This document shows positions 11,641 to 58,100 of a stretch of DNA of 64,000 bases, piece by piece; the stretch's first letter is position 1, and each line of letters starts with the position of its first letter. The notes below the pieces were generated by a model. The model was not told the DNA's origin and did not search any database. It was given only the letters and a program-made list of their open reading frames with translations. Origin of the DNA: Branchiostoma floridae (Eukaryota; Chordata; Leptocardii; Amphioxiformes; Branchiostomatidae); NCBI RefSeq assembly GCF_000003815.2, contig NC_049983.1:10731482-10795481 (forward strand), in the 5' to 3' direction. The translations under genes and the position numbers were made by a program.

Positions 11641-11903
11641 CGTCAGAGTGAAGCGCTCCGAGACCTTTTCCTTTCACTGGGAGAAAAAAAAAGACGGATT
11701 CTTCGCCTTTTGTGCGCTCTCTTTGTTGAAGCGAAACTTGCAATGGAGTCCTGACCTACTAATGCTTTGTGTTTACTCGAGTAATCTCCCGGTTAATGAG
11801 AACCGCCTTCTGTTTCCGTCAGACAGGCAGGGCGACTACGAGCTCCGCTGAGGTGGTCTAGCGGCCGGGCTGGAAACGCGCGATTTCCACACCACCAGCA
11901 GAC

Positions 11904-14900: not shown

Positions 14901-17900
14901 ATTGCCTCTTTTTCTCCAGGCGCCTTCCTCATCCCGTACTTCCTGACGCTGTTCCTGGCGGGGATTCCCCTCTTCTTCCTGGAGACCAGTCTGGGCCAGT
15001 TTCTCAGCATAGGTGGGCTGGGCATCTGGAAGATATGCCCGCTCTTCAAAGGTATGTTCAAGGTAGTATGATAACCCTTGGCAAAGAGTGAGCCACCCTG
15101 GCTGAAGAAAACAAGTAAAAATAGCAAAAAAATGAGCGTTTAACGAAAAATTCTTAGAAAATATGTCGCGGTGTGTTGGTTGTATTATTTTGTTCTAGTT
15201 TGATACATTAGCTTTGTTAAACCCACAATAGCAACTTAAGTTTAGAACCCTATTCTGTATACCGTATGTACGTTCATTTGCTTCATCTTTCCATGTTAGA
15301 ATATAGATGATTCATTTCTAATTAGCCCATACAATCACTTCACGTAAGTACGTTAGTATTTGATTTTATTCACTTGCAATTAGCCCCATGGGCATGAATT
15401 TGCTATAAAACATTATTATTATTGTTATTGTTATTACTATTATTATTGTTATTGTTATTGTTAAGACAGCTGCCCATGAGAACCGTGAGAAATTAGACCC
15501 TGTGGCCCTCCAGGGTATTAAAAAGATACCCTGTCCGAAATCTGCGGAAAGTCCCCCACAATCCCCTGATTCACGATTCCCTTTAGACATAAACCCCAAA
15601 GGTCCCGGATGACGCAGGCGATGTTGTCTTATCTTGCAATAATGAGGTCGGTCTGTTAAACGGGTATCAACTGGAATTATGGGCTAGCCCTTTGAACCAC
15701 CTCTTATGTACATCCTACCAGCGTAACGTTGTAAGGTTAATACAGCTCTTACATAGTGTGTCATCGGATGGGCAGAGAAACCTTCAGATGTTAACTCCTT
15801 CAGGGGAGGTCACAGATAGAGCCAGTCGAGAGCACCGTTCAATATGAAATAGGGTATTACAGATCATTTTCGTCAAGTTATCCAAATACGTTTTTTTTTT
15901 CTATTCACAAAATGTCCTGAAAGTATCCGCCATTGTACTGCTCAGCCGAAAATCGTGAAAATGAGAATTGGGAGACCTAATTCCAATTATCTCCAATAGC
16001 ATTTGCACTCTCATCCCACAGACAATAAAAGTCTCTGGAAGTACTAGGCTATTCGCTCAATGTTACATATTAGAAGGGCTTTGCTCAAATCAACATAATC
16101 CTATAACTACCGATTAGATATCCCAGCATGCAGTTAAAGAAGTACCCGGATGTTAACGCATGGTGAAGTACCCGGATGCTGACATATGAGTGCTGTCTTA
16201 GTTTTACTTTGCTACGTAGTATTTGTGATGATTGTCTTGGAACGACTCAAATACTTCTCATTTATTCATAACCAGAGCTGGTGTGAAATGTAAAACTTCA
16301 TCCGAGAGCCGCCATGCATTTAAGAGTAGAAATTGGCTTTATTAGCTAATTACAAGCTATTTAATTTATCCTTACCGAAACATAATTATTTTTCGAGCAA
16401 CATTTTAGTCAATAAAAACTACATAGCGCAGTCTAATAAACGTCTGTTCCACCGGTAATGACTCAAGATGAGAGTCTGGCGCCGGGGGATGGGTCTGAAA
16501 TTGCAACTTTGCAAATCTTCTCGTCTGTGATTGATAAAGGCAATATTCGTGCCATAAAAAATAAACGAAGTCTCCTTACTCAATTTGTCATTGTCAAAGG
16601 GCCGCGCAGTTTGCTGAGAAGTTAACAACTGTGTAGATATTAGGGGATATTAAGCATAATAGACTAGTTCCAGACGAGACATTTGTTATCTAGACGTAGT
16701 TTCCCGTCTGTTCCAATTATGGTACGGTAGCCTACATACTATGTGAACGTAATTTTGACGTTTAAGTTTATGAGTTCTAATATTACTAGTATGTTTTGGT
16801 TGTAACTATGATTGTAAATCATTACCTTCGCTGAAGGGTATGTTTTAGGTACCATTTGTGTGTGTCTGTGTCTGTGTGTGTGCCTGTCAGTCTGTCTGTT
16901 AACAGCATAATAAGTCGAGAAGCTGTGGACACGGTATTTGGTATATGTATGTATATGTCGGAAAACGAAGGTCAAGTTTGATAATGGCTCGCTAGCGGCT
17001 TTAATGGTACTGCAGCTGAACCTTCGGTTTTGATATCTCGAGTTCTGAACATGATTTTTGCATGTGCATCGATGCCTTTAGGTGTGGGCTATGCGGCTGC
17101 AGTGGTGTCATTCTGGCTCAACATCTACTACATCGTCATCATCGCGTGGACTCTCTACTACCTCTTCAGGTGGGATACCTAAGATTATATAGATAAACGT
17201 TCTTTACAAACAATATTAGGAAACAACCACATACACATTCTTGTTTCTATGGCATTTCTCGTTTGTGTCATTCCAACGATAGACAGATTTACATTTATGC
17301 AGCATTAGTATCTAAAAAAATATGAAAAAGATTTAGATCTTCGCTGCTAGTTCACAGCATTTTAGAGAATTCCATCTTTTCATGAGTTGTGAATTGTGTA
17401 TCTATATCATGTATATTGAATGTGTTTTTCCAGCTCGTTCCAGTCCGTCCTGCCATGGGAGCACTGTGAGAACGACTGGAACACCCCAAACTGCTTCACA
17501 AACTTCACCATCCTCAGAAATATGACCAAAAACGAGACCGCCAACTATACAGACTCTACAAGGGAGTTCTGGGAGTGAGTATTACACCTACATGTATTGT
17601 ATGAAACCAGTGTGGATACAAAAGTATCTAAAGAGTAGTAACGTCGGTGCAATGGCCAAGTGGGTAGAGTGTTCGCCTTGCATACGGTAGGTCGTGCATT
17701 CGATCCCCGACCGAGTCATACCAAAGACTTGTACAATGGCACATGCTGCTTTCTCTGCTTAGCACTCTGCACTAATGAGGAAGAGTACGGGAGTTAAACA
17801 CACATCACTACCAGCGGACTAGCCCCTGCTGTAGCGGCTGGTACAACTGTGTGGCCCACGGGCTACATAAATCGAGATGGGTGCCACCCCTAAGCTTCTG

Positions 17901-20900: not shown

Positions 20901-23900
20901 ACCACAACTACCGTAACGGAAGCTGCCATAGTGTTTTTCTAAAAGAACTCTAACCTTGACATAACACTGAGGAAAGTCTTATGCCTTCATCGCCATGCGT
21001 ATTCCCGTCAGTAGATTATTATCACCAGCATGTAGAGTTCATAAAGCCTTTATTGAAGACGTTGATCATATTCACGTACCGGGACCTTGAGCTGTAGATA
21101 TATCAAACGCACTGAAGTGTGTCGAGACAGATTTTCCATATCACCCCACTCTTTCATACACCTCACAGGCTTTACATATCAACAAGCTCTCAGGGCAAAT
21201 GTTAGACTAGCAATCATCTAGTTATCGATGCCATTCGCGCACTACTGAACCACAATGGCAAAAGGTCTATCTGCTGGTGCGTAACTGCATCGTGTTGGGT
21301 ATGTGTAGGTATCTGGTAAGGATCGCATCAACACGTGTGCGGGTCAACAGCCATTTTGTGTTACCATTGCCCGGGGCGCTGCGTTTCGGTGTTATCACAA
21401 GCTCGGGATTTCTTATGAAAGAAGATCCGCCACTCGTGTCTTATACTTCTTTGACTGGATAAATATTGAGGAGTAATTATATCCTGAGTTTATTTTCAAC
21501 TCAAGATAAAGGATTTCTTGGTAATATGCAAATGTTTACTAATTAAAATCGTCTCCAACATTATACACGCGTTTCTCTCGACTGTGCGGATCTATTTTGA
21601 AACGAAATTCCAGCAGAATATATAGAACTGCTTGCTATGCCATCCACTTGACGCTTGTAGATTTGTACATGCTTGCAATGTTGATTTTCGCCTGTAAAAC
21701 CTCTCAACATTGCTATTATTCATATCTACGAGTATGTTCGTATGTCTCATGTTCGCGCCTGGCAAGATGGAAAGAGGCGGAGTTGATGCCAAGTCACTGA
21801 CAATATTTCTCTGTGGTGTAAGGAATGTAGGAAAACGTTCCATGCTGGCAAAAACATTGACAGCATTTCAAATTTTGGTTCTATATCTTATTTTTCATCT
21901 ATCGGCATTAAATGCATTAACTGGAACGGAATGAGAATCTCCTAGAGCCAAAGACTTTCCGTGGTTATGACGTCAATAGCGAGCGTTCAATCATGGGCTT
22001 TAGCAACTGAAGATGACGGGACGGGAAGATGGCATTTTTTGCCCTTTGGCCATGCAGAGATCTATTCACATTTTCTTTGATATGTAACCAACAGATTCGT
22101 CTCAGGGCTAAATGATTCCTGAGAATGTTCTGTGAGGGAACGAACTGGCGTAATCTATGATATAGGCTGAAGACGCATTTCGTAGGAAATTATGACATTT
22201 AAAGCTTTTTACATCAAATGGTCACCATGTAACAAGACCTGACGGCGTGTCCGAGGTTCAGGGTTCAGGTTACATCATCATATCGTTCCTCGCCAGTACT
22301 GCAGTCAGGTCACGGCCTTCTCATTCGCAGGTCCCCGGTTTGGGTCCCAATACGCAGCCCTGTGTGATATGTCTCATAGTTTGGGTAGGATGGCCGAAAC
22401 GACACTCAGCTGAGTTCACCCGTCCCCATTTCAATAGGTTGTATCTGGTCATACCTACTCCGCACCTGACTCTGTTCGGGCTCACCCATTCCTTCTTTGC
22501 CTGGTATCCAGCCGTATTATAGCTCCCGAGTCAGGCTCGCAAAGAAGACAGAAGAGACTCGGGAGCAACAATACGGCTGGATACCAGGCTAATTCCTGCC
22601 GGGCAGGTGAGTAGAAATAGGACTGAAGCAGCATTGTAATTGAGACCAGCTCATCTCACTAAGAGTGAGGACTGAGTGACCCAAATAGGGGAATCAGGAG
22701 TTCGGTTAATCTAATTCTATAATACTGTCAATAATCCCCTCTGGAACAGTTTACATTGTTGTTGTGTCTATCTTAAGAATCTTTCATCCTGAGTGATGAT
22801 ACCTGGCATTTATATGGCAGAACTAGAACATCTCGAGGACGCTTCAGTTTGGCATACTATATTTTCTCCATAAGAGGATAAACTTGAAGCTAATTCCAGT
22901 CATTTTACGATAGCAGTATCATCGGGCAAGAATATGTATAGTTGCTTACCACAAGAATATCAAAAGTCTTGAAGAAATATCTATGCTAGATGGTATATGG
23001 TCCTAATCCTACATAATCCCTACATAATCCATCAAGATTAGGTTTTCCATTATGTCGGGGGACCCATCGCCTGGGGAAACATGTTCTACACTAATATCTT
23101 CTCTAATCCTCCACAGGTGTGGATTGATGCCAGCACGCAGATCTTCTTCTCCTACGGGATCGGTCTGGGCTCTCTGGTCGCCCTGGGCAGCTATAACCAG
23201 TACCACAACAACGTCTACAAGTAGGTCACTACTGCGGCCTTAGTTGCAATGAAAGTTTATTTTATCTGCAAGTAAGTTATTGCCCGAGGGCTAATTGCAA
23301 CTGTAACATACAGAATACATAGTAAACATAAATAAAAGACTTTGGTATAGATAACAATGGTGACAAGTGGAAACAAGTGACTATTCTAGCAATAATATAT
23401 GGACTGCTGAAAGCTACGATCTAAGCATTTGGGGTTTGATTTTTTCTGGAAGCATTGGAAGGCGGAATGTCCCACGTTTTCTATGATGAGTGGGTTATGT
23501 GACGTTAACAGGGTTATAGTTTTGTTTATGTCAGTAAATGTTTGGCCGAGTGGGTAGAGTGTTCGCCTTGCATTCGGTAGTTCGTAAGTTTGAGCCCCGC
23601 CGATTCATACCAGAGACGGTGCATGCTGCTTTCTCTGCTTAGCACTCAGCCACCATTCGGGGAAGAGTATGGAAGTTGAACACACACCACTACCAGTGGA
23701 CTAGCCCCCTGGTAGTGATTGCACAAAGTTGTGTGGCCCACTGCTACTGTAACGGAGATGGGCACCGCCCTGTGCGCCATCCGGCACGGGAAGGACGTTG
23801 ACTTTTGACCTGTCCTTTTCCTAACCTTACCGTATTCATTGGTATTCATAGAGGCAAAGGGCAACCTGTCACTCACGTTCCCGCCGTTGTGGCTTGCCTT

Positions 23901-26900
23901 GTGAGATAAAGAACTCAGTTGAGTGAGGTCACCGAAAGTGTAAAGTGGTAGTCTCCACTGCTATCCGTCTGCGTCGTGAGTCCTGAAAGGATGAAGTTTG
24001 ATACCGTACGGGGGTAAATGTTGAATGTTAAATGGTACATGACGCACAGTAGAGATGTGGACACTTGCCTCCAGAGTATCAAGAGGACGTGAGGACTGAG
24101 ATGCGGCACGATGGCGGCGCTGTGGCCGAGCGATTTTAGCGAATGCTCAACGAATTTCATCGATAAAAAACCAAGCTTTTTTACGTTGTGTCTTTTTAGT
24201 CATACTTGAAAGTTTTGCATGATATCCCCACTTTAAAGTCAAGGGTAACGCAAATTCAATCTAGAACGCAGCTGCCCTGCCAACGTGTGACAGTCCAGTA
24301 AGATACCCATAAAGTAGACTGTGTTTGTCGATGTCCATGATGAGGTCATCAAACTATTTGCCTAAAATGTTGAAGAGTATGTCACAAATTATAGATGGGA
24401 TCTTAAATCAGCGTCCGACCTCCAGAGTTTCCTAATAGTTTCGTTATGTCCTCCCCTTGTTGCCAGGGACGCGTTGATCGTGTGCACCGTGAACAGCTGC
24501 ACCTCCATGTTCGCCGGCTTCGTGGTCTTCTCTGTTGTCGGCTTCATGGCGAGCGTGCAAGGCAAGGAAGTGAGTGAGGTGGCGGCATCAGGTAAGGGTC
24601 GTAATGTATGTTGTTACAACATACCCCATCTAATCTTATGCTGTATTGTATTTGTATGCATACATGTGTCAATGTTGCCAATTAAAAGTTGCACTATTGA
24701 TGATATACTAACATTAAAAGTTGTAACATTAAGTTTATGCATTCTCTATTGCACATTTATGAGTATTGTAGTCTCCGTTGTTCTTTAGATTCTTTGCGTA
24801 GAGTCATAGTCTGTATAGACTGACCGACAGTAGAAATAGTAATAGTAGCTAACATATTAAAGCATGTTACAATGGAATTATGGAATACGTCCAGCAATTC
24901 TTTCTTTTTGACTTCAAATCCAGGACCCGGTCTGGCATTCCTGGCGTACCCATCAGCTGTGATTCAGCTGCCCATCTCTCCTTTCTGGTCCATCTGTTTC
25001 TTCCTCATGCTGTTGATGTTGGGACTGGACAGCCAGGTATGTGTGTTGTTCCTTTCTTGTGCTGTAAATGTACATGTTAATGTTAATGTTAGGGCCAAGA
25101 ATGTGTGCTGTTCCTTTTCTCTCCTGTTGATATTAATGTTAATGTCGGGCAGCCAGGAATGTGTGCTGTACATGTTAATTCATCGTGCTGTAAATGCTAG
25201 AACTGGACAGCTATGTGTGCTGTTCTTTGCTTAGAGAGGATGGTAATATTAGGGTGGGACGGTCGGTATGTGTGCTGTTCCTCCCTTATGTTATTGGTAC
25301 GTGGACTGCGCAGCCAGCAGATATGTGAGCTGTTTCTTCCCGTAGCCGGTGGAATGGCCTAGTGGGTAGAGTGTTCGCCTTGCATTCGGAAGGTCGTGAG
25401 TTCGATCCCGGCCGAGTCATACCAAAGACTATAAAAATGGTACATGCTGCTTTCTCTGCTTAGCACTCAGCATTCGGGAAAGAGTATGGAAGTTGAACAC
25501 ACACCACTACCAGTGGACTAGCCCCCTGCTGTAGTGATTGCGTTGTGTGTGGCCCAGGGCTACAAAACAGAGATGGGCACCGCCCTATGTGCCAGAAATG
25601 GGCACTGCCCTTGGCGCGGGTAGGGTTTAACTTTAACTAACTTCTTCCCGTCGTACAGTTCTGTACCCTGGAGGGGTTCATCACTGCTGTGGTTGACGAG
25701 TGGCCGCACTTGTTCCGCGGACGGAAGGAACTGTTCATCGCTGGAGTCAGCTTCATCTCCTACCTCATCGGACTGTCCCAAATCACTCAGGTGCGGTGTG
25801 AAGAACCTATTCTCATAAAAGCATTGTTTGTACGCTCTATGGTGCCCATGGTGTCGACGTGGATCCTAATATAGCTCCTCGTCTGTTGTTTAGCGCCCTG
25901 CACTGCACCTACATGCGTCGTGGCGTCGTAACTGAGGTAGAGTGTTGGGCTCGGACTCTTGAGGTCCCGGGTTCGCTACCCGCCGCGCCCCCGACGCTGT
26001 GCCCTTGGGAAATGCAATTTACACGACATGCCTCACTTCACCCATGTGTAAAAATGGGTAACTGACTTTGGTTGGGGAGGTAAAAGAATAATAATATCCT
26101 TCTGTCTGTACTTAGTTTGTGACACTGTGACAATACATGTAAGTTACAAACTTGAGTGCAGTGCCACATTGTCCATGTCTGTCGGGACGCAAAAACAAAA
26201 CCCACAGGCTTACAACATAAAGCAATGGCAGCAACTTAGTGATACAACTCGTACTTACTAAATCTTGCTGTTTTTAAATCTACCCCAGGGAGGCATATAC
26301 GTCTTCGAGCTCTTCAACTACTACTCAGCCNNNNNNNNNNNNNNNNNNNNNNNNNNNNNNNNNNNNNNNNNNNNNNNNNNNNNNNNNNNNNNNNNNNNNN
26401 NNNNNNNNNNNNNNNNNNNNNNNNNNNNNNNNNNNNNNNNNNNNNNNNNNNNNNNNNNNNNNNNNNNNNNNNNNNNATATATTGGATGATGATGATATAT
26501 AGCCTGGGTACCATCCGGATAGTAGTTCGCTCCGACGTTTATTATACACAATATACAGTCGCTTCTCGCTCCTTCTCTTATTATACACTATATACAGTCG
26601 CTTCTCGCTCCTTCTCTTATTATACACTATATACAGTCGCTTCTCTGCTATTCTTGGGTAGCAGAAACGAACATATATAGGAGCGAACTATCACCCGGAT
26701 GGTACCCAGGTTAATGCATATACGAATGTCATAAATGAGTTTTTCGGGGGCACCTTTTTGAATGTATTCATATGTACATGAGCGATATACACATAGGGGA
26801 AGGAGAGAAATAGAAACACTGAATGACCCTTCATTAAAGCCTAAATATATAGTGGTGCCCTTTCTTTAACGTCATTATTTCTTCGTCTTCCTTTTCTGTA

Positions 26901-31134: not shown

Positions 31135-34017
31135 ATGCCTATGACAGAAGCGATGACCAGGGACAACATACACGAACAGCTCCCCAAGAGAGACAGAATG
31201 CAGCTCTACAATTTCGTGGGCAGGGACATTATCCTGTGGGAGAGGAACATTGGAGACGATGGGGACGAGATTGGCAAGAGGGTTTGGCCCTCGGTCAGTA
31301 AGGATAGATTCTGGCGACAGTCAATGCCAGCTTATTATTATCATTATTATTATTGACAATTAACAGCTACAACAAAAGGTTAACGCATACATGTTAAATT
31401 TTTACTGAGCAGAAAAAAGTGTTAAAGCTTATCGAACGAAGTATATAGCTGCTGACAGAAAAATTAGTGACAACCGTATCTGATGCTTCAGAAGAGCTTT
31501 TGTGTGTGTGATTTTGTTGTAATGGCTTGATAACAGAGAACCCTTTGAAATGTAAAAGCAAGCCACTGTAACATACACACTATATACATATGCATGAAAC
31601 AACACTATGTTTGTTAGAACTTCAAATGGATTGTTGACATTTTTAAAGACAGTTTTATTTTCGTCTAAAATGTCGCAACATCTAAGCCATGCAAGCCACG
31701 CTAGCAAGGGCTAATCATAGAAATAAGAAACTTGCTAGCTATGTGTAACGTTATGTCTCTATTGTTCGTGAATCAACGTTGGCAACCGTTAAGTTGGTTA
31801 GTAAACTTTTGCATACAAAAAAAAAGCTTATTTTAAAATGCGGCCATAAAAATGAAACCTTCAGATAATCAGATTTTCGTAAAATATTTAGCATATGACG
31901 ATTATCACAATGACCGGACCAGACCAACCCAAACCGGTTGTAAGACGTGTTGACGTGTTTGGCCACATGGACAGTACGGACCACTCAGCACGTAAATGAG
32001 ATGCACAGCATAACATGAATGCCCCAGATCTAAAACGTCGCTGACAAGACAATTCCTCTTGACCCTATAGTGACCTATAAGATAGAAAAACATCCTAGCT
32101 TTCTGAAATGTAATGTTAATATCGAAGACGTAGCAACATCTGAAAATCGCATGAATTTGCCCTCTCAATACATTGATTCCAACTCCCTACTACTGATCCA
32201 TTGTTAGAAATCACATGTAATTGAATAACACCTTCCAAAACGGGAATTATGAAGTCGTTCGTTCTCATTTCATTGAGGGAGGGGGTGATTTGTAGTTTTG
32301 TAATTTTACCGTGCCATTCTAACAGAACGTCTTCCTTTTCTCTTGGTTTCCTCTCTCTATGATACATGCGTCTGAAACTGGCCAATACGGTAGGCAGTGG
32401 ACCTTTGCCAATTCCTGCAGAATGGTGACTTTCCTATGCAAGATAAGAAAGTACTAGAGTTAGGATCCGGCATAGGACTGGTCGGTATAGTAGCCAGTCT
32501 TCTCGGTAAGTCGTCTTTTCAGATGTTCGAGGACATACTTTGCAAGGAACCCTGTGGCACATTGAAACCATGAGGAGCAATAAAGAAAAAGAATCATACA
32601 ATTGTAGCACTCAAAGGGAAAGAATTAAACGCATGGCAAATATGAATATCATATGATTTCAACAACAATAACGACTGGCTCAAAGCAGAGTCCATATGCA
32701 AAATGATGTTGGCTGGTTTACGTCATTTTCTGACCAAACAAAGGTGCTACAGGATTCTGACTCGTCATGTTATCATCTCCATGAATGGTATGTCTGTCCG
32801 TGTGTCTGTCTGTCTGTCTGTATATTTGTGTTTCCAGATATTTGTAGTCAGCATAACTCAATAACCTCTAAATTGATGACGATGATATTTGGTTTATGAG
32901 TAGGCGTTGGGAAGACGAAGGTCAAGGTCGATTTTGAGTCCCATATATGTGACCTTGTTACTGCAGCAGAACTTCCGTTTTTTGTATATTTTGACCTGGA
33001 CGTGCCATGGAGTTGATTTTTTTGTACTTATTTTGGTGGCAGATAGCTTGTGATGTAAGAAAGAAGTGGCGTATGTTTGGGTCCCCTAACAGCTTGCTCT
33101 GGAACTGCAGCCTGAGCATTTTTGTCAAAATCTTACCAGGGGAATAACTGAACAAAGGAACGACGGATTTCAGTGATATTTACTATGCAGATAGCTTAGA
33201 CAGAGATGTACACAATGAATCGCAAATTATGCAAAATGCATATTGTTCTAATAACATAACTTCATAGCCACTTACAGAAACACCTTGATGCCATACGTCT
33301 GACCATCATCATCATCAACATATCCATCATCATACGTCATCGCACACAGCTCCATCGTCTTATCCATCATCATGATCAGCGGCATCGTGGTTTTTGTGGT
33401 GAATGATTTCTTTGTTACAGTTACTGACATGGTTTATTTTGGCCACGCCACAGGGGCGGACGTGACGCTCACCGATCTGCCCAACATTGTCGGCAATATG
33501 GAGGAAAACGTCCGTGCAAACACAAGGGAAGGTTGCAAGTATCCACCAAAGGTAAATTGTGCCAAAAGATTGTTGCATGTCAACATGATATATTATTAGA
33601 AAGAGCGTATGCGCCTATGACTAACTGTGTATCAACAAACGTAAAGGTTTCTTACATAACTCGTCCTAATACACTCCTTTTGTACAGGTGCGTCCCCTAG
33701 TGTGGGGGAGGAACTTGAACAGTATCAAAGGACCGAAAGAAAGCTTCCACTACGATTACGTCATCGGTACTGACGTCATCTACATAGAGGAAACCTTCCA
33801 TGACCTCAGCGTGACATTGAGGCACTTCTGTGACCCGCGAACCACGGTACTACTGGGCTGTCACTTCCGGGTCAGAAACCGTGACCTTAGGTTCATCGAA
33901 CTCTTCAAGAAAGACTTTGATATTGTGAGGGAACACAAGATCCCGGGGCAGGGCGTCAACAAGGTTTTGTTTGAGGCTAGAATGAAAGGTTGGGGTGACA
34001 TCGATGTCCAAACTTAA
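31135..34017 (+). CDS. METTL21-like protein-lysine methyltransferase, tandem copy 1 (4 exons)
   Basis: Class I SAM-dependent methyltransferase of the METTL21 group, which in known members methylates lysines of chaperones and translation factors. Exons: 31135-31293, 32394-32505, 33454-33551, 33688-34017; intron phases 0,1,0; 232 residues, usual for the family. Motif I is LELGSGIGLVG (74-84), post-I is VTLTDLP (94-100), and the family DxxY motif is DVIY (152-155) after YDYVIG. The N-terminus has the WE...KRVWP signature before the first intron. The exon 2 acceptor at 32392-32393 has a poor pyrimidine tract but aligns in length with the two sister genes. A stronger acceptor at 32419-32420 would remove nine residues and keep frame. 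Motif I differs from the sisters (GSGIG, not GAGTG). Substrate is unknown. Confidence 0.9.
32786..32985 (+). repeat. dispersed repeat copy 3
   Basis: Lacks the ATTACCTTCGCC head. It has the GTCTGTCTGTCTGT middle, an AGCATAACTCAATAACCTC block, a GATGATATTTGGTTTATGAG block, GACGAAGGTCAAGGTCGATTT and a TACTGCAGCAGAACTTCCG end. It is in intron 2 of the first METTL21-like gene. Confidence 0.7.
33301..33372. repeat. CAT/ATC-rich simple repeat
   Basis: Interrupted ATC trinucleotides (CATCATCATCATC and CCATCATCAT blocks) in intron 2 of the first METTL21-like gene. Confidence 0.8.
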
Positions 34018-36301: not shown

Positions 36302-38746
36302 ATGGATGACCTGCTAACTGAACTTCTGGAGCTGAATTCTAAACCGGTATCGTATGCAGAAAGACTGGTGCGTAGCTTTGCAATTTTGGTTCACTTCTGA
36401 GAGGATTCTGTACATGATAACGAGATGTTTATATCTTGTTTTATTTGACGTTATGAACCATAAAACGTGAAAAGAAATATTCATGTTGTAGATACTCAAA
36501 ATAACCGGATTAAGAAAAAGCCCGTCACTTACTAGTATCCCGAAAAAATTGTAAAAGGGCTTGGAAATAAACCCAAGTATTTTGAATGTCAAGTAGAACT
36601 GTAAGATACTATCTCCAAATGAACGATATATTATAATGTATGCACGCTCTGTACTGAGTCGGTTGACTGTTTACACATGTCAAAGTCACTGATGTGCCAG
36701 CACGTATACGTTAAGAATAGCTGCTATATCAGATATCGCTGTCCCTGGGAGGATACCAGATCCACTGGACAAGATAGCTGACAGAAAATAGAACTAAAAG
36801 GCTACAGCAAATCTGCACTCGCCAAAATAAGATACCAATATCCGGGGACAACATGCAATGCTATATTGAAAATGTTATCTAGTACATTATCTCTGACGTA
36901 GGTTCAACTATCCGCTGGCCATATAGACACAGCCCGAAATAAATAACGGACGGGTCCTTGACCCAGATCTATTCTCGCCTTCACGATCAAGATACAATAT
37001 TGTGTCACGGTGTTGGCTTGCGCAAAGTGAAATAGTGGACCATGCCAAAACGCTGTAACAGTTTCAGTTGAGTAGACTAAAATCGTTGGCCAGGAAGTAA
37101 TTGTAGAATTCCAGTTTGGGCCACTCTTCATCTGGAGGACATTCATCTAAATTTTACTATTCGTGAATTGTCCTGTGTTCTGCATAGTTGACAATAACCC
37201 TCTGTTCCATCATTGACTTTATAAACACACTTTTTTGTTCGGATGAAAAGGGTTAGAAATAAGATTATATATTACAAGGCTCCAAATATAGCTGCCATTG
37301 ACATTAGCTCATTAGCGCATGGTGTGGAGGCGTGAACAACTGACTGACTGCTCAAAAGAAATTGAAAGTAAACTTCAACATTGTACATGACTTTCATCAT
37401 TATTTGCCCTTGAGGTTTTTCTAAAACGCGATATAGATTTAAAAAAAGACTTCGTATTTAAGCAAAATGCAGAAAGACGACGTCAAGGTCAGCATGTAGG
37501 AATTCCCAACGCCATTGTTGCACCTGTTCCAAACCCCGAGAACTTGACATAAGACAAGTGCAATACTTAATTGTCAGGGCAGTGTAACGTTATAGAGGAT
37601 GCACAAAACGTATAAAAGACTACGCATACATGTACAGTATCGACATTTTGTATTGCAAATCTTGTCGCGTATCTTGAAAATACTGGGATAACTAAAATCA
37701 TGTATTTAGTGTCAGGATGCATTCAAAGGTCAGAGGTCGTGGATCCAGCAAGTATTCTATAGTAGTGTACATTTCTTGCAAACACAACACAACATAACAT
37801 AACATAACAACACATAACATAACATAGCATAGCATACACCTTACGAAAAAGTAGATTCGTGAAAACGCTGTTAATGAACTGTATCCAAATTATTTTTCAT
37901 AGGAGAAAGCCCGTGACATGATGCGGACCCGGCGGCGAAGACAGGTGTTCCAGCTGCTGGGGAGGGAGATCGCCATCTGGGAGAGTGATGTGGGGGAGGA
38001 GACGGACCTGGCGATAGGGAAGCGCCTCTGGCCCGGGGTAATATAACATGCACCGCATGCAATCAAACAGTGTGGAACGGCATAGAAGCTCATCTTTGTT
38101 CTTGGTAATCATAGTACTAATCATAGTACAGTGCCAAACTTTCTTCCAACACAAAAGTATACACGGGCCAAATTTTCAACGACCACTGTCGCCCTCTTCG
38201 GGATCAATATTGATGACCTTTTACTTCCGAAATTATACTCGCAAGAGTTACAGACATGTGATTTTATTAACACGTGATCTGGCGGATACGTGACACAAGC
38301 ATTTGGTCAAGCGTGCCAGGAAGTTTATAACGCCCACCTAAAGTAGGACTGTGGAACGACATTTTTTTTGTTTTAGAGTTTCATAATAATGAATAGAAAA
38401 CAATAATAAAACTGTAATACAAAATTAACACGAATTGCGCAATTCTCGTAGTTCTCCAAACTGGTGTTAGTTTAATAGATAGTTTAAATGTTTCTATGAT
38501 GCCGGTACCTGGGTCGATTCCTTTGTTTTGCAATTGTCCTTTCCAATCAGGGAGTGGCGTTTGCTGAGTTTCTGGAGTCCGAGAATTTCAACATGACGTT
38601 TGAAGACAAGAAAGTGATCGAGCTGGGAGCGGGGACAGGACTCGTGGGCATTGCCTTAAGCTTTCTAGGTATGGAAAATACGTTATTTATACACGTTATT
38701 ATGCCGTCACCTCATGTCTTTGTTTGCGTGATTAGTTTATTTATTA

Positions 38747-38830
<84 letters not shown>

Positions 38831-38839
38831 CGCGCGCGT

Positions 38840-38884
<45 letters not shown>

Positions 38885-40119
38885 CGTGCGTGTGTGTGCG
38901 CGCTCGCGTGTGTGCGTGCGCGTGCGTGCGTGGGTGTGTTTGTGTGTAGTGCGCGTGTGCGTGTGCGTGCGTGTACGTATGAATGTACACGCATGTTTGT
39001 CTGTGTAAGCTCTCTCTTCTGTCTCTGTACATGGCACTATGTAAGGTTACAAGAGAGAGTAACAAATGTATACTGGTTTTTGAATGCCGCTCTTGCTATG
39101 AGCATGCGTTAAATATGACAGTTCAGTAATAACAGTTGTTCTTTTATTATTTGCAAATGTTAATGCCATAGGAGCTGACGTGACCCTGACTGACCTACCT
39201 GACATCATTTCCTACACGGAAGAGAACGTGTTAATGAATACCATGAACGACAACACACCATTGTGTAGATATACTCCACAGGTGACGCTAGTCTTGATTG
39301 CTCTTATTAGGGAGGTACAAAATGAACACCTCATATATACCCGTTACCAGATAACTCTTTTTAATGTGTATGGAGTTACATATTAACGCCGTGAAAATGT
39401 TTCCAGCAATATTCATAGTTTCCAGTCGTTCCCAGTCGACAATAGTAAATGTAGGCACTTTACACGGCCTTCCTCACTTCACCCATGTGTAAAAATGGGT
39501 ACCAGGCTTTAGTATGGGAGGTAGAGTATACCTTTACCCTCTGTCTGTACTTCGTAAAATAAGTTACTAAAATTTGAGTGCAGTATCACATTGAGCTCGT
39601 CTGTCCGAAAGCAGATACATAAAGAGTCCATGTCAGGAGACTAACGACTTGTTCTCATGATATATGAAATACATCAAATCCCTCAACTGTTAACTTTGTA
39701 TTTGGAAAACATGTAGGTATAGGGGATTGAAGAGGCTCGTTAACACTTTATGCTACTAAATGGAATCAAGAGCCGATTCTGTTCTTTACATGTTGTGCGT
39801 CTTTCTCTAGGTGCGCCCTCTAACGTGGGGCCAGGACCTTGCAGAATACCCAAGGAACAATCCACGATATGACTACGTCATCGGAATGGAGTGTGTGTAC
39901 ATCGAGCCCGTTTTTAATGACCTCATCGCCACCATCAAACACCTGAGTAGCGAGGACACCGTTATTCTCATTGGATACCATGTAAGGATCAAGGCACGGG
40001 AGGAGAAGTTTAGAAAACTGTTTTTCGACAATTTCAATGTACTAGGTGAATTTGCTGTGAAGGGTCCAGCGTTCACGGTGCTAATGGCCAGAGCTCTACC
40101 CGGGGAAAACACTTCGTGA
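36302..40119 (+). CDS. METTL21-like protein-lysine methyltransferase, tandem copy 2 (5 exons)
   Basis: Exons: 36302-36367, 37903-38037, 38551-38668, 39172-39281, 39811-40119; 245 residues. The last four exons match the sister genes in phase (0,1,0) and sequence. Motif I is [11 protein letters not shown] (90-100), post-I is VTLTDLPD, and the DxxY position reads ECVY (170-173) after YDYVIG. Unlike its sisters it lacks an ATG in the position used by them, and the homologous exon is open to its acceptor. The short upstream exon at 36302 supplies an ATG and 22 codons in phase 0 with a usable donor (CTG/gtgcgt); I infer this exon, it is not proven. An Arg-rich stretch (RTRRRRQ) precedes the conserved [13 protein letters not shown] segment. 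Substrate unknown. Confidence 0.88.
37784..37834. repeat. (AACAT)n microsatellite
   Basis: Ten or so pentamers of the AACAT type with small interruptions, in intron 1 of METTL21-like copy 2, about 70 bp before the exon 2 acceptor. Confidence 0.9.
38749..38975. repeat. (AGTT)n followed by (GT)n/(GCGT)n microsatellite
   Basis: An uninterrupted AGTT array runs to about 38830 and passes directly into GT- and GCGT-rich repeat to about 38975. It begins about 80 bp after the exon 3 donor of METTL21-like copy 2. Frames across it are artefacts. Confidence 0.95.
39452..39625 (+). repeat. SINE family 2, headless fragment
   Basis: Shares CACTTCACCCATGTGTAAAA, the GGGAGGTAGAG/GGGAGGTAAAA block and TTTGAGTGCAGTATCACATT with the full copy at 25913-26205, but lacks the tRNA-like head. 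In intron 4 of METTL21-like copy 2. Confidence 0.75.
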
Positions 40120-41225: not shown

Positions 41226-44146
<2,921 letters not shown>

Positions 44147-44229: not shown

Positions 44230-45396
44230 TTCATGTGTGCGTTTATGTACATCGCAAATAGAATTCCGGACATTTTACAGCAATATACAAATATCCGGGT
44301 GAGAAAATGCATACAGACAGCTGTATAGAATGATGAAAATTAAGATGTATAAGTTGAATTACAGTTGACTGAATCCTGAGTATTTTCAAAGTCTGTTTGC
44401 TGTAGCAATTATAAATATTAATCACAATAAATATATCCAGAATATAATGAGAGTTGTACACATGTATATATGGATCCGTAACTCGGCACCTGCATTAATT
44501 ATTTAGAGGCCTGTCGTTCTATTGGTACCGACCAGGTAAGGTCATCGAATTGTTCCCAGACACATTGTAGACAGATGACACGTCAGCTGACTATCAGTTT
44601 GTGGGGTGTAGGTTGCGGTGGAGCACAAACAACCTTGGGGGACGACGGATTGCAGACGTTCGACTACTGATCCTGTTTAGTTTAGACAGGTAGGAATACA
44701 GATAACGTTACATACAAATGAACCGTTTCGTGCGTTTTGGAGTGGGTAGAAATACAGATGCATACAAATAGACAAATTTCGTGCGTTTCTGAGTGGGTAG
44801 TGTCTGTCACATACAACTATATGTAGATAAGCTCGCCTTTGTTCATAGTGTATCTGGGGACAGTTCAGGTGACAATGCTAGGGATGTCACCAGATACTAG
44901 CTTTTGTATCTATAAGAATAGATGCAATTAGACAAAGCATTACTCACAAGGTTTACAAAGGTTTTCACTTAAAGCTGGCTGTTATTGCTTTCCTAAGCAT
45001 GCTTAATGTGGAAATTCGCATGGAAGATCGTGTAATTTGATTATATGGGATGTCAAATTTGTATGCTGTCACCATCTTGTTCTGGGTGGACGTCAATTCT
45101 AACATCCATAGTGCATGATTATGAGAAAATATTGTGTCTAGTTTAAAAGCGTGTTGTTTACAAGGACTATGGCGACAATAGTGTCTCTGCTTACATGAAG
45201 TATTTGTCAATGGTATGCGCAGAAAACTACCTATGAAAAATTTAGTGTAGATCGCGTGCTTTATATCTGCAGAACGAGATCATATTTACCGGCGTGTAGC
45301 TTGTATTGGGCACGACAATAATAACTACGTTGTACACAAACCGTGGAGGGGGACACGACATAGGCAGCTACTAGATAGCTGTTACCAACCTGCACG
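44230..45396. other. intergenic, nothing recognised
   Basis: Between METTL21-like copy 3 and the small membrane protein cluster. It contains a partly repeated phrase (AGGTAGGAATACAGAT near 44689 and GGGTAGAAATACAGATGCATAC near 44743) but no exon or RNA gene that I can support. Confidence 0.5.
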
Positions 45397-45702
45397 ATGG
45401 CCAACATACTTGCAGAAGACATTTCGTCCCACTACGGCAGCCAGGTTATCATGATAGTAGGTGCGTTGACCTCAGGTTTGATGATACAGATGTTTCCTCT
45501 AAACCTGCTCCCGTATGTCATAGGAGCTGCACTGGTCCTTCTTGGCGCCATCATCTTCTTCAGGAGGACCGTTTTGTACCAGGGTTTCCACAACGACGAC
45601 GAGGAAGAAGACACGCCTTACGTTAACGACAAGAAGATCATGGAAGCCCTACCATCCTGTCAAACGATTGAGCAAGCAGCGGTAGAAGACACTGAACAGT
45701 GA
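45397..45702 (+). CDS. small two-helix membrane protein A1, family not recognised
   Basis: Single uninterrupted frame of 101 residues; ATG in good context (GCACGATGG). Two predicted hydrophobic helices, about residues 17-33 and 36-55, separated by a short FPLNLLP turn, so both ends face the same side. After the second helix comes LYQGFHNDDEEEDT, an acidic segment, and a polar tail rich in Glu. The VGAL-SGLM--MF--NLLPY--GA core and the LYQGF-NDDEEEDT motif are shared with A2 at 47446-47694, which supports real coding. No enzyme motif is visible. I do not know its function. It is followed 258 bp later by B1. Confidence 0.75.
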   Translation: MANILAEDISSHYGSQVIMIVGALTSGLMIQMFPLNLLPYVIGAALVLLGAIIFFRRTVLYQGFHNDDEEEDTPYVNDKKIMEALPSCQTIEQAAVEDTEQ

Positions 45703-45960
45703 CTTGATCAGAATACCTAGAAACACTGACTAGTGATTGTTACAAACAGTTACTCACGGATATTTTACCAACCGAAGATGAGTTTTCCTTCTGATTTATG
45801 ATAAACTAATAATCATTATCGCATCATTCGATTTTCCCTCTTGGCATCTAGTAATACACAGAAGGAACAAACAGCGAGGTCATTTCAGAGTGTAAAAAAA
45901 TCATTTACTAGTGTAAAAAAATCATTTACTATTTCGTGTAATATATGAAGTAGACCCAAA

Positions 45961-46335
45961 ATGGCTTATATCAAATCTACATTTGTACTTGGTTCAATGG
46001 TTGTCGCCTCAACCATCATAGTGGGACTTTTCCTCACCACTCTTCCGTCAAAATCGGTAACTGTAATTATAAAAATCTTCTTGGCTACTGTGGGCCTTAC
46101 TGCACTCGTGTTTGTGGGTTTGATAATCGTGTCGGCATCGGCGATGCTACTGGATGAAAAGTTTTTGAAGAAAGACAAGGAGGGTCGAGTACAGGAAAAG
46201 AAAGAGGGAAAAGAAGAGGACCAAAAAGTGAATGAAGATGAGGAAGAGCAGCAAGACTTGGAAACTACGAATGACGATAAGGCCTTGGTGGTAGACAAAC
46301 ATGGTGTATGTGTCCCACCGAAAAAGGTGAATTAA
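45961..46335 (+). CDS. small two-helix membrane protein B1 with acidic tail, family not recognised
   Basis: Single frame of 124 residues; ATG in good context (AAAATGG). Two hydrophobic helices at about 7-27 and 38-61, then a charged tail rich in Lys and Glu (about 66-104) and a conserved C-terminal signature DK-LV-DKHG--V--KKVN shared with B2 at 48000-48578. The signature at the extreme C-terminus suggests a functional docking or sorting signal; that is inference. ATTAAA signals at 46675 and 46694 could end the transcript. Function unknown. Confidence 0.75.
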   Translation: MAYIKSTFVLGSMVVASTIIVGLFLTTLPSKSVTVIIKIFLATVGLTALVFVGLIIVSASAMLLDEKFLKKDKEGRVQEKKEGKEEDQKVNEDEEEQQDLETTNDDKALVVDKHGVCVPPKKVN

Positions 46336-47445
46336 AGTGAAGTAAAGACAACAAGAGAAATCGGTTTATAGATATGAACGCTCCGGATCTCGAACTTCAT
46401 TTCAAAGAATGAAGAGTAGTGTTGAACTCTAGTTGTGGTTTTAGCTGGAATCGTATTTAGACATACGTCTGTTAATTTAGATTTTAGACATACACCTAAC
46501 AGTATTTGGAAATGTATAACGAGAAATACACATTGGACGTTAATGTTGATGTTTTAACATAGTAACGCTGTGTTAGTCAAGGCTTAGGACTGATGGATAT
46601 ATTCAGCACTTCAGCGGTCACTTCGGACAGATCATCTGTTCTTGTGCCTTATAGGAGCATAAACAGATTTACAGATTAAATTCTATACTAGCAATTAAAT
46701 TCTATACATGTATTTATGACATATTGTGCACGAAAAATGCTACCTTTTCTACTATACGTATTATAAAGGAGCTTAGAATTCTATCAACAAATGTTTCAGT
46801 CGACAGCACGGCACAAGAGAATGGAGAAATTAAATAAGCTAGTTGGGAAACAGTTACAATACACAAGATCTCAACACACGTGTTTGTATTTATCAACAAA
46901 TTATGGAGTAATAAAGTTTCTTGACGAAAAATGCTGTCACGTATTTTTTGACTGCCCATATTTTAAAGAAGTGTGCTCATAAAGGGAAATAGGAACATTG
47001 GCAATGAGAATAGAAACAATTGTAGACAATGTATAGGAAATTCGTATGAGAGATGTTGCAGACCGATGGTTGTGGTATGTTACTTATTTGATTTGCCGAC
47101 ATCACATCGTGACACGTATGTTGATTAAAGTCATACATTATACATTCTTCTTACTATTTACGATGCCAATTTAAGTCTTAATATAATAAGGGTAGGAACA
47201 TGTTCTCCATAGATAAGTGTACGTGTCCAATTTTTAAAACTTACGTCTCGCCGATCGCCTTTATTCCAACTGCTGCCAAGAAAGTGTAGTTACTTTTCAG
47301 AAGTACGGTTGACATGGGTTATATATAGAATAATTTGTTTTTATTTCTTTGCGGTATAAAGTTACCAGGGAATGATATCACGTGTAATATATACCCAGGC
47401 TCCAAATTAAAAGCCGGGAATGATAAAACTGCTTCCACTTTCCAG
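46336..47445. other. intergenic between the two A-B units
   Basis: Contains presumed 3' UTR of B1 with ATTAAA at 46675-46680 and 46694-46699. A TATA-like TTATATATAG lies at about 47319-47328. I see no ATG-starting exon that splices in frame to A2, although one is needed. Confidence 0.4.
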
Positions 47446-47694
47446 CCACATACCATACACCAGAAGAAGACCATAAACTACGACAGACATGTTGTCATCA
47501 CAGTAGGTGCTCTCATCTCTGGGTTGATGACTAAGATGTTTGGTATGAACCTACTCCCGTATATTCTAGGTGCTGTACTTGGTGCTATTGTTTCCGTCTG
47601 GGTCACCATTCTGTACCAGGGGTTCCTTAACGACGACGAAGAAGAAGACACGACGTGTAACTTTCCCGAAGACCAAGTCATCGCAGCTGCGTAA
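47446..47694 (+). CDS. small two-helix membrane protein A2, 3' exon (paralog of A1); start not found
   Basis: The frame matches A1 over two helices and the LYQGFLNDDEEEDT motif and ends in TAA. The frame is open upstream to about 47335 but has no ATG before the first helix. A good acceptor (CTTCCACTTTCCAG) lies at 47445, in phase 0, so I take the exon to begin at 47446 with an unseen 5' coding exon. The alternatives are a start-less pseudogene or a non-AUG start. From 47446 it gives 82 residues. The C-terminal tail is shorter than in A1. B2 follows 305 bp downstream, the same order as A1-B1. Confidence 0.6.
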   Translation, partial: PHTIHQKKTINYDRHVVITVGALISGLMTKMFGMNLLPYILGAVLGAIVSVWVTILYQGFLNDDEEEDTTCNFPEDQVIAAA

Positions 47695-47999
47695 GATATA
47701 CATACGTCATTGGTCTGTTCGGAGACTGTACAGTCGACGGTGGGTGAATGAATTGTACTCAAAGGTTGTGACGTACATATTCAGGTTACAGAGACACGGC
47801 TTCTGATACTGATAAACAGTGCTAGATTGATGATTTCAACTGTTCCATCTTGGGTCTGTTGATTCAGAATCGCATTTAGAACTGGAAAATTATTTCTACC
47901 TGTGCACACACGGCACCTAGCGGAGGCACCCTATACTGCACGAAAAATATTCCCTGATTATAATCTTATATTTGTTGAAAGAGACTCTAAAGAGACAAG

Positions 48000-48578
48000 A
48001 TGAAAGTGTCTAACGCGTTGATGGCCTATGTTGGACTTCCCGGCATGATTGTCACCGCGTGCTTCATGGGAAGCGTTGTCCTGGCCGCCCTACCGCAGAA
48101 TGCGTTGTTCGTAGCCTTGCTAGCTGTTCTGATTATCGCCAACTATGCTCTGTTGGCGTTGGTAAAGATAGTGCCGCCTTACTCTGGCGAATTCGAAGAC
48201 GAGGAGGAAGATGAGGAGGAGCAAGATAAAGAGCAAGTAAAGGAGGAGAAGGAAGTGCAAGAAGAGGATGAAGATGAAGAGCAAGAAAAGGAGAATGATG
48301 AAGAGCAAGAAAATGAGGAGGCTGGAGATCAAAAAGAGGAGGAGGATGAAGATCAAGAAAAGGAGAAGGATAAAGCCCCGGAAGAAGAGGAGGAGGAAGT
48401 ACAAGAAGAGGATGGAGATGAAGAACAAGGACATAAGGAGGATGAAGATCAAGAAAATAAAGAGCAACAAGATGAGGGGAAAGGAGAAGAGCAGGAAGAC
48501 GCAAAACCCGAGAATGAAGACAAGATCTTAGTGATGGACAAACATGGAGACTTTGTTGCAACGAAAAAGGTTAATTAG
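48000..48578 (+). CDS. two-helix membrane protein B2 with long acidic tail (paralog of B1)
   Basis: Single frame of 192 residues. Two hydrophobic helices at about 8-30 and 36-57, a KIVPPYSGEF linker, then about 110 residues made almost entirely of Glu, Asp, Lys and Gln in irregular EDEEQ/EKE repeats (64-173), and a C-terminal DK-LV-DKHG--V--KKVN like B1. The tail is much longer than in B1 and probably expanded by slippage of GAA/GAG/GAT codons. The long minus-strand frames here (116 and 142 codons) are shadows of this tail. Highly charged tails often bind cations or basic partners, but no function is shown. Confidence 0.78.
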   Translation: MKVSNALMAYVGLPGMIVTACFMGSVVLAALPQNALFVALLAVLIIANYALLALVKIVPPYSGEFEDEEEDEEEQDKEQVKEEKEVQEEDEDEEQEKENDEEQENEEAGDQKEEEDEDQEKEKDKAPEEEEEEVQEEDGDEEQGHKEDEDQENKEQQDEGKGEEQEDAKPENEDKILVMDKHGDFVATKKVN

Positions 48579-48779
48579 CACAGGAAAAACATCAAGGGAA
48601 GTAATTTGACATCATATAATCAGTAATGTACGTTGTTAGATACTCCAGATTTTGTGCTTTACATGATAAACATTTCGGTTATATGCTTAGTATAACTATG
48701 AGTTAAACGTTGGAGTCTCTTCTGCACCAGATGGTACGTACGGCGGCGCCCAAAGATATATATAGCCTTGGCTTGGGCC

Positions 48780-48990
48780 AAGAAACTTTGTGCAATCATG
48801 GGGATAGTCAACTTGTAATGGTGAGTGTTCAACAACATGTACCAAACTCTTCTCAAACGTGTGCTAAGCAGAGAAAGCAGCATGTAACATGTTAAAATGT
48901 TGAGTATGACTTTGCCGGGGGTAGAACTCACGACCTACCAAATGCAAGGCGAACATTTCACTCACTTGGTTATTGCACCGATGATACCAA
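48780..48990 (-). repeat. tRNA-derived SINE family 1, copy 4, reverse orientation
   Basis: On the minus strand it reads GCAATAACCAAGTGAGTGAAA, GTTCGCCTTGCATTTGGTAG, GTCGTGAGTTCTACCCCCGG and the TGCTGCTTTCTCTGCTTAGCA body seen in the SLC6 intron copies. It lies about 200 bp after B2. Confidence 0.85.
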
Positions 48991-55134: not shown

Positions 55135-58100
55135 ATGGAAGGAACGGGCTGCACCGAGCCGTGCAAACGGATTGACCGGGATCTGCGCTTCAGCATCTGC
55201 ATGATCGTCGTGGGGATGTCCCTGCTGACCGCCGGGTCTCTAATGGTCATCCTCGGACACGTCCTGAGCGCGCAGCTGGACAGTGAGAACGCCAACTCCC
55301 TGGCCATTGCCGGACCGGTCTCGCTGACCATCAGCGGCGGGTTCGTCCTGCCGGGCCTGTGTCTGTATTTTGTCAGGAAGAGGAAGTCTGCCAGAAGGAG
55401 GAGGATCCCGAGGAGCGGCACGGAGCTGGTAGATCTTGTCTTCTCGTCCTACCCGTCCCTGAGTGACATCAGCCCCACCCGGAACTACGCCCCGCCCCCG
55501 TCCTACCAGGAGGTGATGCAGATGGGTCTGGACGTCTACCCCCTCTCCAGCAACAGGTATGACCATTGCTCACGTAACACCTCCCACACGTAAAAATGCC
55601 TTGGTCTCGAAAAAAAAGCATATCCTATGACAAAACAGGACCATTTGTATGAACAACATCTTTAAGGCCTACGGTAAGTGTGGCTATTGTTTTTATAGAA
55701 ATTTCATAATTTGCACTGCAAGAGTTGCGCAATATCTGTTGCACGGACGTATTGCGAGGTCCTTTTCCAGTGTTGTCCTGAGTTGGCATACGCAGTTGGA
55801 AAAGGGAGAATCATAATTTAATATCCAAACAGGAGATAAGTGAATCTTTGTACTGCAACAATTGCACTATAACGTTATATGATGCATGGACGTGATAATA
55901 CGGTTCTTTTCAAGTGTGGTCTTGAGTTGATAGATGACATACTGTGAATAACGTTCGGGAAAAGGGGAGACTCCTAGACTAAACTCTAAACAAGAAAACA
56001 CAAAAGAAGTCGTCAATCTTTCTTACTTGTGCAGACGAAAAGCCTTGGAACATCCTTTTTGTGTCTTACATAACGGATAGCGTCTGAGAAAAGATCAGAA
56101 AGACGTGATATATAGTGGTGATATCAAAGTATCCGCGCATTACCACTAAGTGGAGTTTTCCCTATCGAGTCGTGGCAGGTGGCCGAATCATTAAGACCAG
56201 CCAATTTCACGTGGTTATTCTGTTTGATGGCTACTGTCGGCAAAACCTAATTGTGGTGAGCTAAAAAGCTGCAAATATACTACAGTTGTCATCAAATTCA
56301 ATCCAAAATCCTTTACTGTGTAGAAGATCCGATGATATGCATTTTCCTGTCCAACGTATAGATGGCAATAAGGAATACTTCATACCCAAAACGTTTTCAA
56401 CAAGAGCTATCTACCGCCCCAAAATCGTGATCACAGCTTGTTCAGGACACTATACTAGATATCAAAATCGGAAGCTCCGCCACAGTACCATAAGCCGCTA
56501 GGGGGTCCAAAATCTAACCTTTTTGAGGTGTTGTAAAGACCTACCAAGATATTAGATATCAAAACAATCCATTTAGGCAGTCTTGAGTTATCGCGTTGAA
56601 AAATGGACAGATCTAAATTTCCAAACACCTGTACGTGCATTTCGGTGCAAAGCTAGAGTTTCCATCTAATAGAATGGTGATGAAGTGAGCTGGCCATCCC
56701 TAGGGTATTGTTCACCTTGCTGTAAGGACAAACTCACATGACCATGTTAAACCATGGTGGGAACAATGTCGTAAAGGTGACCCGCGTTGGTGGAGAATTA
56801 GCGTGGTTTCCGCGCCGTAGGGGGGCGGCGTTACTCTTCAATTAGACAAGTTCCCATGTTCTGTATGTTCCAATTATTGGAGCGCATGCATCGAATTTAC
56901 CCAGCGTGCGCCACAGGGAAGCTCTAGCAAGCATCGCACAATCAATATTTCCACTGTGCTGAGATGTAGACATACAATTTACCATGAAAATCTAACAGTA
57001 CGGAAGTTTTAAGTCACCTTTTTAAATTGCATCTACGAAATGCCCTTGCAATAAGAATCGATGGAATATGACTTGTAAGTATCCCAGTACAACGTTGATG
57101 TAGTTCAATGCTCTTTCAGATGAAAAATGACATGCCATTTTATTGAAATTTCTTATCGTAGCAGAGAAGTGAGAGCATAAGCAAAGGTCACATCTCGCAG
57201 TTTCATCTCTTATCTTGTCTATATGTGTAACCTCCGTTCATTCCGTATGCGCGGCTGACAGATGAGTACCTATGTTTCTCTCGCCAGCGGGCAGTCGTTA
57301 AAACAGTCTGTAACTGTCAAAGATTTGAAAGCACGCTGTCTCAAGCACTCACTGCGCATGCCTCGCCTGGCTAAAATATCATGTTTTTCTGGCGCAGAGA
57401 AGACAAATTGTCAGGGGAGTTCGCTCCAAAATCCATCGCTACTTGGAAACCCTCCAATCTTCCTCTGCAATATGTGGCCCCTGGCTTCCGAGATATCGTT
57501 TGCAACAGACGGTGGAATAGTCAGTGTGACAAGGACAAACTCCTACGTTTAGGGCTTCTACGTCTCTACATGTTCAGACAGCCTGATATTTGTTAGCTTG
57601 AACATGGGACAGAAATGATGAAAATAGAAATCGAACGTTGAAATTCAAATATTAGTTGTGATAATGAAATCAAGTGAAGGCAGTTGGAAGCTTCATAAAA
57701 GTTTGTGCTTTCTCATTATTGACATTGAACTTCGTCTTACTCAGGAGTTGTGCCCAAGAACAGGTGATTTTGGTGGATTCATAAAACTAAGGTAGACTGC
57801 AAGAAAATAAATGATGAAATGTTTGAGAGACAGAACCAATATGACAGTTATAGGTCGGCCGTACTGTAACGGCATTATGCTATTCAATTATTAAATTATA
57901 CCCCGGACGTGTTATGTACTCATGAGTTATTCATGGTGAGTGGGAAAGGCATTGCGGACATCGCGTGCAGGGCCATGAAAACGTTTTCCCTGTAAAAATG
58001 TGTTAGACAAATTGCTCACTGAAACGCCGGCAGAGAACCCCTTTGTTTTCACAATCACTAATAATGTAATCTGTTGAAATGGTTTGATGTTTGCAAAAAA

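Follow-up and report, generated by a model that had tools for sequence, protein, structure and literature searches.

The 64,000-nucleotide stretch of Branchiostoma floridae DNA analysed here (the window) carries four small open frames, and these raise the question of whether two genes have been duplicated together and whether their kept order means that the two products work together. The frames, which a sequence-only reading had placed in the order A1-B1-A2-B2, are all present on the + strand. A1 (45397-45702) is a 101-aa frame with hydrophobic segments at residues 17-35 and 37-55, the second directly followed by YQGF and NDDEEEDT. B1 (45961-46335, 124 aa) encodes two hydrophobic segments, a mixed-charge tail and the C-terminus LVVDKHGVCVPPKKVN. 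In A2 (47443-47694) a core homologous to A1 begins at 47476; 47443 is a chosen point in the open frame and not a start codon, and the stop-to-stop frame is 47329-47694, the nearest in-frame upstream stop lying at 47326. B2 (48000-48578, 192 aa) has two hydrophobic segments, an acidic tail of about 110 residues and the C-terminus LVMDKHGDFVATKKVN, with 69 D/E in the whole protein. In each of the four, a short loop lies between the hydrophobic segments. The A-to-B gaps calculated from these coordinates are 258 and 305 bases. No further copy of A or B was found in the window by profile search, which covered 2201 frames with a minimum length of 20 aa and excluded those with long N runs; the best remaining matches had E-values of 0.72 (A) and 1.6 (B).

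The two A copies are clearly homologous. They share 59.7% identity over 62 alignment columns (tblastn within the window, E 4e-20), and their common core amounts to 59 codons; the family alignment takes A2 from 47443. The local score of 139, against a shuffled mean of 24.3, is matched by 0 of 1000 shuffles, and the DNA of 45431-45615 matches that of 47477-47652 with an E of 1.6e-23. Both the two-helix core and the LYQGF-NDDEEEDT block had been described as shared, and the block, identical at 13 of 14 positions, is the most conserved part of A, located at the membrane edge. Outside the core, no clear similarity was found between A1 and A2. The A1 start is an ATG with A at -3 and G at +4, preceded by an in-frame stop at 45376.

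For the B pair, whose family alignment takes B2 from residue 8 (48021), the claimed common C-terminus is evident: 18 of the last 30 residues are identical, and not one shuffle in 1000 equals the score of 90 (shuffled mean 20.3). Conservation in B peaks at the very end of the protein, LVxDKHGxxVxxKKVN, and both copies close with KKVN. The claim of two shared helices needs qualification, since the helical parts score only 45 against a shuffled mean of 29.0 (reached by 8 of 1000 shuffles), a weak likeness that holds for layout more than for sequence. In the DNA, 46243-46359 matches 48486-48600 (E 2e-9); the match extends about 25 bases beyond the coding end, so that the B1 stop codon and the first 3' flanking bases (46333-46359, +) still align to 48576-48600 after B2. 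Both B starts are ATGs with A at -3 and a near upstream in-frame stop. An AlphaFold2 model of B1, with B1 and B2 from residue 8 as its two input sequences, has a mean pLDDT of 61.7 and a pTM of 0.29; it gives a helical hairpin, with helices at 2-26 and 30-76, a tail at 76-106 with pLDDT below 50, and two-residue strands at 110-111 and 117-118 that flank DKHG in a block (111-120) of pLDDT 71.

The substitutions between the paralogues imply coding constraint. In the six-frame comparison, whose columns are fixed by the proposed frame and whose frame-to-frame differences carry no significance test, pN/pS is 0.43 for the A core in that frame and 0.78-1.59 in the other five, and 0.47 for the B C-terminus against 0.66-1.41. 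Nei-Gojobori dN/dS, which had been suggested as a check on the paralogues, is below 1: the A core gives 0.32 and the B C-terminus 0.35, and the B helical part, weakly aligned and with a high dS of 1.62, gives 0.45. Among 1000 bootstraps, pN/pS reaches 1 once for the A core, once for the weakly aligned B helical part and 36 times for the B C-terminus, the last being a modest result taken alone. GC3 is 0.60 in A1, 0.54 in A2 and 0.64 in the helical part of B2, compared with a total GC of 0.33-0.41 in the four non-coding stretches measured; the excess is smaller for B1 (0.46) and for the whole of B2 (0.48). From the constraint between paired paralogues, we conclude that the A and B frames are probably real genes, with doubt over the 5' end of A2.

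The proposal that the A-B unit was duplicated with its order kept is borne out by the paired homology at both the protein and the DNA level. The two units are homologous, adjacent and in the same order and orientation, as in a tandem-duplicated gene pair. The dS values, both rough, are similar (A 0.68, B C-terminus 0.78), and the DNA of the two units matches in the coding parts and a little 3' flank, all other matches having an E of at least 0.069. Together with the two short gaps, these features suggest that the simplest history would be a single old tandem duplication of the A-B segment, followed by divergence under constraint. Just upstream, exons of a PF10294 lysine methyltransferase, presumably METTL21-like, recur in tandem at least three times (33688, 39811 and 43856). 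This array covers 33444-34014, 38548-40095 and 41292-44146, with similar exons at 33.4, 39.2 and 42.3 kb and at 33.7, 39.8 and 43.9 kb. Since the adjacent gene is also tandemly repeated, the locus duplicates readily and duplication here is ordinary; the A-B array would be one case of it, involving genes of no recognised family.

Several other features were observed in the window. An SLC6-type sodium:neurotransmitter symporter exon (PF00209, E 6.4e-19) is found at 11862-12233 (+); position 12147 matches a splice donor strongly (7.3 on the one simple generic consensus matrix, untrained on this genome, that gave all splice scores here). Copies of a dispersed repeat, each about 190-250 bases long and 70-84% identical to one another, occur at 17638-17889, 23543-23779, 25347-25594 and, on the opposite strand just downstream of B2, 48774-48987. 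A long inverted repeat at 3270-4061 matches its own reverse complement at 75% over about 790 bases. A 152-aa open frame at 55135-55590 (+) has two hydrophobic regions, a PPSYQEV stretch and a GC3 of 0.84; Pfam gave nothing above cut-off for it, and it was rejected as a relative of A or B because 244, 167 and 936 of 1000 shuffles score at least as high as its comparisons with A1, B1 and B2, respectively. Rfam gave no match at gathering thresholds over the whole window.

Neither family had been recognised from the letters alone, and our Pfam scans likewise gave no family at cut-off for A or B. The best sub-threshold match of A2 is TM7S3_TM198 (PF13886; E 0.00045), where its 20.4 bits fall below the curated cut-off of 29.2 and A1 is not listed; the likeness is likely to be generic hydrophobic similarity. 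B2 comes nearest to the SLC52 riboflavin transporters (PF06237; E 0.001), but its 18.6 bits lie below the cut-off of 27.9, and the match vanishes when the helical part is scanned without the acidic tail. In the PDB, queried with A1, B1 and the B profile, the lowest E is 0.002, for the B profile against a calcium-channel subunit, with helix 2 and the tail aligned; a weak match of the same profile to calnexin (PDB 8rjc), which involves the tail and the end of helix 2, is not significant (E 0.11) and is taken as compositional. The lowest PHROGs values are 0.0021 for B1 and 0.0022 for B2. In our judgement, these weak Pfam, PHROGs and PDB matches are compositional, such as hydrophobic or acidic stretches produce.

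Transfer from prokaryotes or viruses was also considered and rejected: none of 169 pattern matches in prokaryote genome contigs was confirmed as a relative of B1, nor was any in viral contigs for the two families (57 and 600 pattern matches). A and B are therefore orphans relative to the libraries searched, in which the contig collections are prokaryotic and viral and none covers animal genomes. Among the paper titles and abstract openings listed, none concerned A or B. Small orphan membrane proteins are easily overlooked or left unnamed in animal annotations.

We tentatively conclude, with a probability of roughly 0.4, that A and B are two orphan hairpin membrane genes that were duplicated together, A being sorted through its YxxPhi motif and acidic cluster and B exposing a charged tail with a constrained, probably binding, end. 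Both products would form tight helical hairpins with cytosolic N- and C-termini. The basic residues that follow the second segment in A1 and B1 point to this orientation of the tails; the positive-inside argument draws on these two proteins, since in A2 no basic residue separates the second hydrophobic segment from YQGF. YQGF, which fits the loose YxxPhi motif, and the acidic cluster are present and conserved in both A copies, on the predicted cytosolic side. Located beside the membrane, they could direct A to TGN/endosomal membranes by adaptor-type sorting. The long charged tail of B is probably disordered and exposed, and the small conserved element LVxDKHGxxVxxKKVN at its end is putatively the constrained, probably binding, part of the protein. 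The KKxx end could in addition bind COPI, thereby returning B to the ER.

The most serious competing view is that A2, perhaps with the entire second unit, is decaying and has become a pseudogene by loss of its 5' end; we consider it only slightly less likely than the reading above. The A2 frame is open back to 47326 with no in-frame ATG before the core, and the TTG start assigned to it is a product of the bacterial code in the frame listing, so that A2 either takes its start from an unseen 5' exon or is damaged; moreover, homology with A1 begins only at the core. A candidate splice acceptor abuts the core (first exon base 47446, score 4.7, the best in 45200-48100), but 36 acceptors score above 4.6 on the + strand of the window and this one is not special. 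No splice donor above 5 by the simple consensus matrix was found on the + strand of 45200-48600 to end a nearby 5' exon. On the other hand, the core itself is open, its gap of 9 bases keeps the frame and its codons are constrained; donors do occur further upstream, at 44535 (7.4), 44689 (4.7) and 44298 (4.6), and an assembly error is possible.

A constrained, duplicated unit of small two-helix proteins stands from the sequence-only reading, which also took the kept order as a sign that the two products may work together. A single duplication of a two-gene segment keeps the order without any functional link, so the kept order says little about joint function, and the duplication can be explained whether or not A and B act jointly. 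It is rather unlikely that the two were copied and kept together because they function as a pair, their hairpins perhaps joined in a hetero-oligomer. Order and spacing are kept in both copies, both families are constrained, and each product is a membrane protein with two segments and a charged tail. However, segmental duplication would preserve that order at no cost, the repeated methyltransferase genes next to the array show how readily the locus duplicates, and the sorting-like motifs, if real, indicate different compartments. If the two families turned up together in other species, a functional study would be worthwhile.

Two further explanations appear improbable to a similar degree. In the first, A and B would be ancient duplicates of one two-helix gene, and the array four copies of one family. 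Their layout is identical, and a profile comparison (one comparison) places the hairpins in register over 47 columns with an E of 0.0008; the hhalign probability is, however, just 24%, the four A-B pairwise scores are reached by 319, 435, 332 and 965 of 1000 shuffles, and shared hydrophobicity may explain so weak a signal. In the second, A and B would not be separate genes but would belong to a single transcript unit, as its exons or cistrons. The short A-to-B gaps are compatible with this, and AATAAA and ATTAAA are absent between the A1 stop and B1, the first (46331) lying in B1's own end. Nevertheless, in-frame stops 4 and 3 codons upstream of their ATGs close the two B frames, all donors inside A1 score at most 3.6, and nothing specific appeared among the papers listed on amphioxus, trans-splicing, operons and bicistronic transcripts.

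Less likely still is a lineage-restricted two-component system in which A and B always occur as a pair, A cycling through the TGN and endosomes while B is held in the ER; contact might then be made through the hairpins or the LVxDKHGxxVxxKKVN end, and the pair would constitute a new orphan organelle-contact or cargo-sorting module. That the frames arose by chance in low-complexity sequence is very unlikely: the acidic tail of B2 is repetitive and antisense frames across it are open too, but the A1/A2 score is not attained in 1000 shuffles, pN/pS is lowest in the proposed frame, and GC3 is coding-like in A1, A2 and the B2 helical part.

Under the preferred reading of two orphan hairpin genes, A and B yield two short sequence elements that are open to testing, and each recalls a known system. 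Like KKxx dilysine ER membrane proteins, B1 and B2 carry lysines at -4 and -3 (KKVN), taking the stop as the true end. Of the window's 305 open frames that lack N and reach 60 aa, 2 end in this way (by deduction B1 and B2), as do 7 of the 2201 frames that reach 20 aa; such ends arise by chance in 3.3% (B1) and 1.3% (B2) of 20000 shuffled tails, the two copies not being independent. COPI binding requires KKxx at the C-terminus, and the signal is stated to be active at a distance of 17 residues from the membrane but inactive at 37 (PMC3979892). The B ends differ in this respect, since they lie about 63 (B1) and 133 (B2) residues after the second segment, past the distance given there, and such long tails argue against a working KKxx. 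Furthermore, no site in 45200-48600 matches a donor better than the B1 end, AAAAAG/GTGAAT (4.8), so B1 might in truth end differently. For A, the comparison is with furin-type TGN/endosomal cargo. AP mu subunits read YxxPhi, and acidic clusters are found in TGN proteins such as furin (PMC6627992). No homology was found between A and such proteins, and A would be a two-segment hairpin, whereas furin is a type I enzyme; the likeness lies in YQGF and NDDEEEDT standing straight after the second hydrophobic segment.
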